From the NCBI RefSeq assembly GCF_002355415.1, contig NZ_AP014936.1, positions 1,984,001 through 2,048,000 of the forward strand: a stretch of 64,000 nucleotides of DNA, given 5' to 3'. Position 1 is the first letter of the stretch. Every line of letters starts with the position of its first letter. Below the pieces are notes generated by a model, which had not been told where the DNA came from, did no database searches, and saw nothing but the letters and a program-made list of their open reading frames with translations. The translations under genes and the position numbers were made by a program. Below, piece by piece: positions 26,651-27,147 of the stretch. The DNA comes from Sulfurifustis variabilis (GTDB lineage Bacteria > Pseudomonadota > Gammaproteobacteria > Acidiferrobacterales > Sulfurifustaceae).

Positions 26651-26728
26651 GGGCGCGAACCGGAACGCGATCGGCCGCACGTCCGCACGCGCGACACGTT
26701 CGTCCGGGAGCGCGCGTCGGTCGGAGAA

Positions 26729-26816
26729 TGGCGGAGAGGGAGGGATTCGAACCCCCGGGCCCTTGCGGGCCAACGGTTTTCAAGACCGCCGCCTTAAACC
26801 ACTCGGCCACCTCTCC
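26729..26816 (-). tRNA. tRNA-Ser (anticodon UGA)
   Basis: Read on the minus strand, the 7-bp acceptor stem GGAGAGG pairs with CCTCTCC, followed by discriminator G and an encoded CCA (26731-26729). The anticodon arm is CGGT-CTTGAAA-ACCG with anticodon TGA. A long variable arm (class II) and a GGTTCGAATCC T-arm complete a standard serine tRNA. Upstream lies a duplicated, interrupted 5' half of the same gene. The cognate serS is at 60315-61592. Confidence 0.97.
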
Positions 26817-26869
26817 GATGAACTCGGTGCTCCTACTGGCGGCCGGCTTCGCCGTCGAGGCTCGCCGGC
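26781..26869 (-). repeat. 89-bp direct repeat, copy 1 (tRNA-Ser 5' half plus 5' flank)
   Basis: These 89 bp are identical to 26962-27050, offset by 181 bp. The repeat holds the tRNA-Ser 5' half up to the first anticodon bases (26781-26816) and 53 bp of 5' flank. The flank can form a GCCGGC-GCCGGC hairpin. Copy 1 belongs to the intact tRNA gene. Confidence 0.9.
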
Positions 26870-26870
26870 C

Positions 26871-26997
26871 GCGGGCCAACGGTTTTGCTCGGCACATCCT
26901 GTGCCTCGCCCCTTCGGGGCCATCGCTTCGCGATGTCCCAATTCGCTCCCGGCGAATTGGTCAAGACCGCCGCCTTAAACCACTCGGCCACCTCTCC
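26871..26997 (-). pseudogene. Interrupted partial tRNA-Ser copy
   Basis: On the minus strand this reads as the tRNA-Ser 5' half (26997-26962, up to CTTG in the anticodon loop), then a 75-nt foreign segment (26961-26887), then 16 nt of the anticodon 3' arm and variable-arm start (26886-26871, identical to 26780-26765). The rest of the tRNA (long arm, T arm, acceptor 3' strand) is missing. It cannot form a functional tRNA. Confidence 0.85.
26887..26961 (-). repeat. 75-nt four-hairpin module inserted in the tRNA anticodon loop
   Basis: The insert consists almost entirely of four successive perfect hairpins on the minus strand. These are CCAATTCGC/GCGAATTGG (9 bp, loop CGGGA), CATCGC/GCGATG (loop GAA), GCCCC/GGGGC (loop GAA) and GGCACA/TGTGCC (loop GGA). 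They are separated by 0-2 nt. It is far too short for a group I intron. It looks like a small non-coding repeat element, possibly dispersed in the genome. Confidence 0.75.
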
Positions 26998-27050
26998 GAT
27001 GAACTCGGTGCTCCTACTGGCGGCCGGCTTCGCCGTCGAGGCTCGCCGGC
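26962..27050 (-). repeat. 89-bp direct repeat, copy 2
   Basis: Exact copy of 26781-26869. It provides the 5' half of the broken tRNA and its 5' flank. The copy sits between the pga operon end and the intact tRNA, so both tRNA pieces would be in one minus-strand transcript. From 27051 to 27147 I see no feature. Confidence 0.9.
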
Positions 27051-27147
27051 TCCCCGCGATTGCCCGGCGACTGGACCCGCCCCCTGCGCCGCTCGACCCC
27101 CCGTTCGTAGCGCGAACATACCGCAGGACCACCGCTGAGGGACAGGG

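Follow-up and report, generated by a model that had tools for sequence, protein, structure and literature searches.

A probable four-hairpin mobile-element copy in the anticodon loop of a broken tRNA-Ser(UGA) gene of Sulfurifustis variabilis, and its relatives in Escherichia coli

We analysed a 64,000-nt stretch of the Sulfurifustis variabilis genome (the window), in which an intact tRNA-Ser(UGA) gene on the minus strand is accompanied upstream by a broken copy of the same gene (Table 1). The two share a direct repeat with 90 of 90 positions identical at a spacing of 181 bp. The earlier note had described this perfect duplication and its spacing correctly, with a length of 89 bp that we correct to 90 nt. 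Read on the minus strand, the broken copy runs from ..GGCGGTCTTGA through a 75-nt insert to AAACCGTTGGCCCGC.., after which the duplicated 5' flank starts anew. The insert, whose final base is ambiguous by one A, lies inside the anticodon loop immediately 3' of the TGA anticodon, where the earlier note had already located a four-hairpin segment of this length. The 16-nt tRNA repeat that it reported was also found, at 26765-26780 and 26871-26886. The window copy is outside any gene, unlike the in-frame module copies found elsewhere. A 136-aa frame (MAEREGFEPPG..) occupies the plus strand at 26728-27138, antisense to the tRNA and the module. It could be annotated as a false protein, and it may account for an earlier impression that translated strings recur near tRNA-Ser genes.

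Table 1. Features of the tRNA-Ser(UGA) locus, in window coordinates.
Feature	Position	Strand	Basis
Intact tRNA-Ser(UGA) gene	26729..26816	-	ARAGORN; Rfam RF00005, 60.6 bits
90-nt repeat, second copy: 5' flank and 5' half of the intact tRNA, ends ..TCTTGA	26780..26869	-	Repeat search, identity rechecked
AAACCGTTGGCCCGC: broken tRNA resuming 3' of the insert, until the duplicated 5' flank restarts	26871..26885	-	
75-nt four-hairpin module, 3' of TTGA in the anticodon loop	26886..26960	-	Sequence, fold, R1
Hairpin H4: stem 6 bp, loop GGA (3 nt); GGA-type outer hairpin	26891..26905	-	
Hairpin H3: stem 5 bp, loop GAA (3 nt)	26908..26920	-	
Hairpin H2: stem 6 bp, loop GAA (3 nt)	26921..26935	-	
Hairpin H1: stem 9 bp, loop CGGGA (5 nt); GGA-type outer hairpin	26938..26960	-	
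90-nt repeat, first copy: 5' flank and 5' half of the broken tRNA-Ser, ends ..TCTTGA	26961..27050	-	Repeat search

The insert, hereafter the module, is a chain of four hairpins. Folded as single-stranded DNA, it reached -26.4 kcal/mol, against -12.6 ± 2.2 kcal/mol for 200 shuffled sequences (z = -6.4; 0 of 200 equally stable), and the surrounding 127 nt folded as RNA gave z = -4.5. A DNA search of the S. variabilis genome (3.96 Mb, one contig) revealed module-like sequence beside other tRNA-Ser genes and beside tRNA-Arg. These sister copies consist of a duplicated T-loop (GGTTCGA or AGTTCGA), the module, and AATC with the rest of the duplicated tRNA 3' end. From nine own-genome copies, which we selected and aligned, a covariance model (R1) was built; it includes no E. 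coli copy, and its E-values are rough owing to a short calibration. At E ≤ 0.1, R1 detected 15 copies in the genome. By our reading, 11 of them lie in or adjoin tRNA genes or tRNA fragments, and four (at 1504450, 258935, 2965052 and 1383317) lie away from tRNA. The window contained one match of note, the module itself, at 95.5 bits, a score that is not independent because this copy is among the nine that built R1; the runner-up in the window scored 16.4 bits. Elsewhere in the genome, an insertion of ~1.65 kb after tRNA-Arg(ACG) (locus L010, 7787-9560; genome 1451787-1453560) ends in a tRNA 3'-half repeat and resembles a small integrated element.

The hairpins are conserved among the copies, which measure about 72-79 nt. 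We fitted 72 matches to R1, giving alignment A2 with 71 distinct rows. Standard pairs occupied 95.9% of the cells in the 71 distinct copies and double changes occurred at 21 of 22 pairs, counts that are favoured because A2 was fitted to the R1 structure. Covariation scored 0.542; shuffling gave 0.137, and controls with slid partners did not exceed 0.058. The distribution of GGA in or adjoining the loops was counted in the first 62 A2 rows (61 distinct), keeping the 34 copies that parsed into exactly four hairpins and leaving out 27. GGA was present in H1 and in H4 in 31 of the 34 copies each, against two for H2 and four for H3. This concentration makes the outer hairpins look like putative recognised ends of the module.

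R1 matched 81 of 185 genomes in a sample of the class Gammaproteobacteria and 79 of 299 in a phylum sample including other classes (E ≤ 0.001 in both); the two samples overlap, the S. variabilis genome is counted in each, and the stricter filters of such large runs undercount copies (14 in genome G396, against 74 in a fuller R1 search). A fixed-pattern scan of named genomes yielded 100 stretches. Among the 80 listed were Alishewanella, Rheinheimera, Arsukibacterium, Alteromonas, Dyella, Rhodanobacter, Rudaea, Serratia and gammaproteobacterial MAGs, a sample biased to T-loop copies because the pattern contains GGTTCGAC. Judged by these matches, the module family is spread over Gammaproteobacteria and other Pseudomonadota. 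The earlier note had made its proposal of an inserted small non-coding element depend on a search of the module against its own and related genomes. The module recurs in both, its hairpins are conserved and its insertion site is common to relatives, all of which bear the proposal out.

Many copies lie close to tRNA genes. Among 29 loci from other genomes (L030-L058, one per genome, the best R1 matches in the class sample), 23 had a tRNA or tmRNA gene in the fetched stretch of up to about 3 kb, a share that is biased upwards because the R1 flank includes GTTCGA. The neighbours were tRNA-Ser, -Arg, -Gln, -Tyr, -Glu and -Pro and two tmRNAs, with the tmRNA-associated copies sitting in tmRNA 3' repeats. 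A tmRNA copy was also sought in an E. coli region near smpB, which held no tmRNA gene. One locus (L030) carries three tandem modules after CTCGA in the anticodon loop of tRNA-Ser(CGA), and another (L046) carries a module in a tRNA D-loop, after GGCTGA. In the T-loop units (L029, L034, L039, L047, L058 and others), the antisense T-arm often reads approximately GATGAGAACC, where the tRNA complement would be GATTCGAACC; this type of change recurs with different tRNAs.

The preference for tRNA is not general. In G396, where 40 of the 74 R1 matches were fetched, 39 of the 40 copies had no tRNA gene in 0.7 kb. ERIC-type strings occurred in 27 of these 40 stretches, and 26 copies lay inside one by eye. 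We take these repeats, and the E. coli repeat at yeiS-preT described below, to be ERIC on the basis of the known consensus. Further repeats of G396 also hold copies. Other modules were located in the loop of a hairpin repeat that reads CCCTCTCCCC (L022, by our reading), inside another module copy (L186) and in a MITE-like repeat (genome G122). In genome G136, the genes for a PglZ-domain protein and for an SNF2-type helicase carry modules in frame within their open frames. The earlier note had proposed that the element targets tRNA-Ser. Such sites do occur, but the description is too narrow, as tRNA-Arg, -Gln, -Tyr, -Glu and -Pro, tmRNA, ERIC-type and MITE-like repeats and genes are used as well.

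Two of these settings gave further observations. Five G122 loci (L192-L196) hold identical modules within a repeat of ~370 bp with inverted ends CTAGCCCGGATATTGCACCAA (by eye); the spread in G122 tells little of the module itself, because the copies ride in the larger repeat with its inverted CTAG.. ends. The PglZ-domain and SNF2-type helicase genes of G136 (L185, 5500-12000) possibly belong to a phage-defence island, and this region carries nine modules. One of them stands just before a Helicase_C match that begins at profile position 67, and the domain may be split.

The sites share a short motif. Insertion is usually 3' of GA, most often CGA, and the next base is A or G at known-empty sites; the target motifs in tRNA loops are TTCGA^ATCC, CTTGA^AAACC and GCTGA^AGGC. 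GA directly preceded the module in 54 of 62 distinct A2 copies (the nine R1-building copies were left out), a count biased upwards by the same R1 flank. No terminal inverted repeats of the MITE kind were visible by eye in the inserts delimited by empty sites, which start with CAAA.. and end with ..GAACA or ..GAATA; the repeat search of the window could register only inverted arms of 12 nt upwards. Likewise, the filled and empty pairs displayed no clear target-site duplication beyond a possible single A.

These pairs comprise two gene sites, one nested site and an intergenic site in E. coli. Genome G125 has two versions of a serine-recombinase locus (Pfam Resolvase, Recombinase and zinc ribbon): L187 lacks modules, while L188 has them at two places, namely the serine-recombinase gene and the next gene. 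At the homologous locus of G136 (L186), both gene sites are filled, and an extra copy interrupts H1 of a resident copy, which is intact in both L187 and L188. The inserts at the gene and nested sites measured 72, 72, 75 and 72 nt by our cuts, those at the gene sites being 72 and 75 nt. In both gene sites, GA is followed by G in the empty state and by A in the filled state; the nested site is clean. A one-base departure from pure insertion, located 3' of the insert, was thus seen in two of the three G125/G136 site pairs and in the E. coli pair, so this base may belong to the end of the element or reflect a one-base replacement.

The E. coli pair lies between yeiS and preT. This interval has no ERIC in LAU-OXA, a plain ERIC without the module in WCHEC025943 and WP4-S18-ESBL-07, and an ERIC with the module after GTGAGCGA in M217 (a net difference of 78 nt, together with a single base change on the 3' side of the insert). 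R1 scored the M217 insert at 73.2 bits and one carried by an E. coli plasmid, the second record, at 73.0 bits. Among 40 listed yeiS-preT rows, spread over a ranking of 5,394 records, two were full length, 14 lacked 78 nt (86% covered), 23 lacked 203 nt and one was a short partial match. The plain ERIC is presumably older than the filled one here. The empty and filled pairs support mobility of the module.

We then compared the window locus with its relatives. A search with the 401-bp locus covered 31 genomes, including that of S. variabilis, and 17 loci were inspected with the window among them (L209, L214 and L215, three of 19 from relatives, were left out). Five of the 17 (the window, L199, L203, L204 and L207) have a broken tRNA-Ser(UGA) copy with a module at this same position in the anticodon loop. 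The latter four come from the same family as the window organism, and their modules have diverged; the L199 fetched stretch contained no intact tRNA. L202 possibly retains a decayed sixth module at this site, L210 has an RtT-like unit downstream, and the remaining inspected loci showed no module in the stretch examined. In L197, a broken tRNA-Ser copy upstream of tRNA-Ser(UGA) bears a different hairpin chain in its D-loop, perhaps a sister element. Since four relatives share the filled site, the insertion predates the perfect 90-bp duplication, or else the site may have been hit repeatedly. Of the recent activity that the earlier note had suggested, the insertion is probably not recent, and the flanking 90-bp duplication is the part that looks recent. 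This duplication could belong to the insertion mechanism.

The module is also related to the RtT repeats of E. coli. In the K-12 tyrT/tyrV repeats, an antisense T-arm is followed by GGTTCGA, four hairpins and GAGTAATCC with the tRNA 3' end. R1 scored the four RtT repeats at 40.6, 38.9, 35.3 and 20.3 bits, the best with E = 7e-10 in 2.5 kb, in agreement with homology of the four-hairpin modules. Conversely, the Rfam RtT model RF00391 detected seven copies in the S. variabilis genome at E ≤ 1, three at 40.3, 38.5 and 35.1 bits (E ≤ 1e-4, under the cut-off) and four weaker, and it exceeded the cut-off in locus L047 of another genome (46.9 bits). Across the 185 class genomes, RF00391 was above the cut-off in 11 and matched 34 at E ≤ 0.001, compared with 81 for R1, which misses two of the 34. 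The sister copies in S. variabilis have a duplicated T-arm (GGTTCGA) on one side and a duplicated tRNA 3' end on the other, the placement that defines RtT. The window copy lies in the anticodon loop instead, falls below the RF00391 gathering score (45 bits) and is not one of the seven matches that RF00391 gave in its genome at E ≤ 1; by the test of Rfam it is therefore no RtT unit, although it has the module in common. As far as sequence comparison indicates, the downstream T-loop copies form the repeats that are known in E. coli as RtT. The RF00391 consensus structure (Rfam, seen at L066 711-1495) displays no four-hairpin module and departs from the fold backed by covariation.

Seen together with its related copies and their conserved structure, the precise insertion beside empty sites, the nesting and the anticodon-loop site shared with relatives, the 75-nt segment very probably belongs to a family of tiny, non-autonomous mobile DNA elements, each composed of four back-to-back hairpins. 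We weighed this against an origin in a one-off rearrangement, in which slippage or template switching made both the hairpins and the duplication. The perfect 90-bp duplication and the inverted T-arm copies elsewhere do resemble strand-switch products, and such an event is a possible source of the flanking duplication. As the origin of the module it is refuted by recurrence, for the structure and much of the sequence reappear across genomes and contexts, and as an account of the whole it is hardly credible. A structured RNA of the RtT type, selected beside tRNA genes and released in tRNA processing, has more in its favour. Proteins like CsrA bind through GGA loops. The strong covariation, the placement of GGA mostly in the H1 and H4 loop regions, and the antisense T-arm and sense 3' end carried by the downstream tRNA units would suit an RNA that binds a CsrA-like protein or pairs with the tRNA 3' end, although we regard such roles as improbable. 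According to PMC4986893, transcripts of tyrT and of many other tRNA operons release RtT RNAs, these modulate the stringent response, and Pasteurellaceae conserve one RtT next to a tRNA-Lys gene. However, a role in tRNA processing is unlikely for the copies in protein genes, ERIC-type repeats and the MITE-like repeat, the module is unevenly distributed among genomes (81 of 185) and varies between E. coli strains, and no GGA was seen in the hairpin loops of E. coli RtT. Selection as a structured RNA is therefore an improbable explanation of the family, and a regulatory RNA as the sole account was rejected because copies occur in genes and repeats. Some copies may nevertheless have been domesticated as RNAs.

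Y1 transposases were the first candidate examined as movers of the module; no mobilising enzyme was found in this analysis. IS200/IS605 elements insert 3' of a short motif and make no target duplication, a behaviour also seen for the module, which would fit a REP/BIME-like element with a Y1 transposase of the RAYT/IS200 type as its mobiliser. The S. variabilis genome has three Y1 genes, and the 185 class genomes (62 with both module and Y1, 19 with the module only, 61 with Y1 only, 43 with neither) display a weak association (Fisher p = 0.012, odds ratio 2.3; Y1 in 62 of 81 module-bearing genomes versus 61 of 104 others). Modules are nevertheless rarely beside Y1 genes: with a limit of E ≤ 0.01 and a distance of ~1.5 kb, they were detected at none of the three own-genome Y1 loci and at two of 30 loci fetched from module-bearing genomes (out of 64 Y1 matches in 16 genomes), and 19 of 81 module-bearing genomes had no Y1 match. 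Orientation relative to replication points the same way, with no bias among 153 copies (76 versus 77; 54 versus 65 with clusters collapsed, p = 0.36). This test used 153 of 247 R1 matches, with the own-genome copies completed from the own-genome R1 search; dnaA was taken as the origin and half a chromosome as an arm, and the lengths of several genomes were rounded. Taken by itself, G396 leans towards head-on copies (15 co-directional, 28 head-on) at an assumed length of 4.45 Mb (4,923,399 was found later), and lengths of 4.38-5.0 Mb give 14-16 co-directional and 27-29 opposed copies. Lagging-strand ssDNA transposition was set aside for want of strand bias among the 153 copies. RAYT/Y1 as the mobiliser is not supported by these results, and this special case of mobility is unlikely.

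Returning to the mobile element, it inserts precisely, usually 3' of GA and with neither visible inverted termini nor clear target duplication, and we propose that it would be moved in trans by an enzyme. The T-, anticodon- and D-loops of tRNA are favoured in many genomes and present the target motif at a hairpin tip. The target would be read in hairpin form, since the arms of tRNAs are palindromic, as are ERIC and the hairpins within the module. The duplication next to a tRNA copy would represent tolerated DNA rather than a component of the mechanism, and a broken tRNA copy would be tolerated because the duplicate preserves an intact gene. Tentatively, these properties might define a distinct minimal class of mobile DNA, namely a four-hairpin chain that transposes into DNA-hairpin loops at GA^A/G, lacks terminal inverted repeats and duplicates no target bases, with duplicated tRNA arms as a main reservoir, a new enzyme as its mobiliser, and E. 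coli RtT, the long ERIC forms and many in-frame peptide insertions as its fossils or domesticated copies. We consider this wider proposal possible, while giving it distinctly less credence than the mobility of the module.

The window module is neither an artefact nor a one-off: it represents a mobile hairpin element in an unusual position, and E. coli has relatives of this element that go by other names. RtT RNA, enlarged ERIC elements and short in-frame insertions, apparently treated apart so far, would be joined into one mobile family, and an E. coli 'regulatory RNA' would be recast as the trace of a mobile element. The family also illustrates how arrays of broken tRNA copies can form. The yeiS-preT polymorphism in E. 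coli makes the mobile reading testable, and the mobilising enzyme is a clear target. The association of RtT with several tRNAs is already known, RtT structure is mentioned in PMC7657543, and RtT hits are listed in PMC4710047. The open-licence PMC literature searched, including PMC7657543, PMC4986893, PMC4710047, PMC11623569, PMC2229807, PMC3733652, PMC10969869, PMC2267715 and PMC2759123, contained no link between RtT, ERIC insertions and insertions in tRNA loops, and no prior account of empty sites of the module was found there.

Among known systems, RtT/rttR of the tyrT operon shares the order of parts with the downstream copies (antisense T-arm, GGTTCGA, four hairpins, AATCC with the tRNA 3' end), whereas the window copy lies in the anticodon loop of an upstream duplicate and has no antisense T-arm. 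An integrative element that targets tRNA would carry an integrase gene between att sites, whereas the insert here is 75 nt. The module is distinguished from MITEs by having neither visible terminal inverted repeats nor a clear target-site duplication. Rickettsia palindromic elements span 105-146 bp, have terminal inverted repeats and reside in protein genes. Compared with them by description, the module is similarly a short palindromic DNA that can lie in frame in protein genes, as in G136, but it is 72-79 nt long and lacks visible terminal inverted repeats. The REP/BIME and RAYT system likewise disperses short hairpins in Gammaproteobacteria; the module differs in its chain of four hairpins and in that 31 of 33 Y1 loci had no module beside the Y1 gene. 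Wilson and Sharp are said to have described, in 2006, long forms of ERIC with ~70-bp insertions, which reportedly were not linked to tRNA repeats or RtT. The likeness to these ERIC insertions lies in the placement of the module at defined internal sites, both in the yeiS-preT ERIC of E. coli and in many of the ERIC-type repeats of G396.
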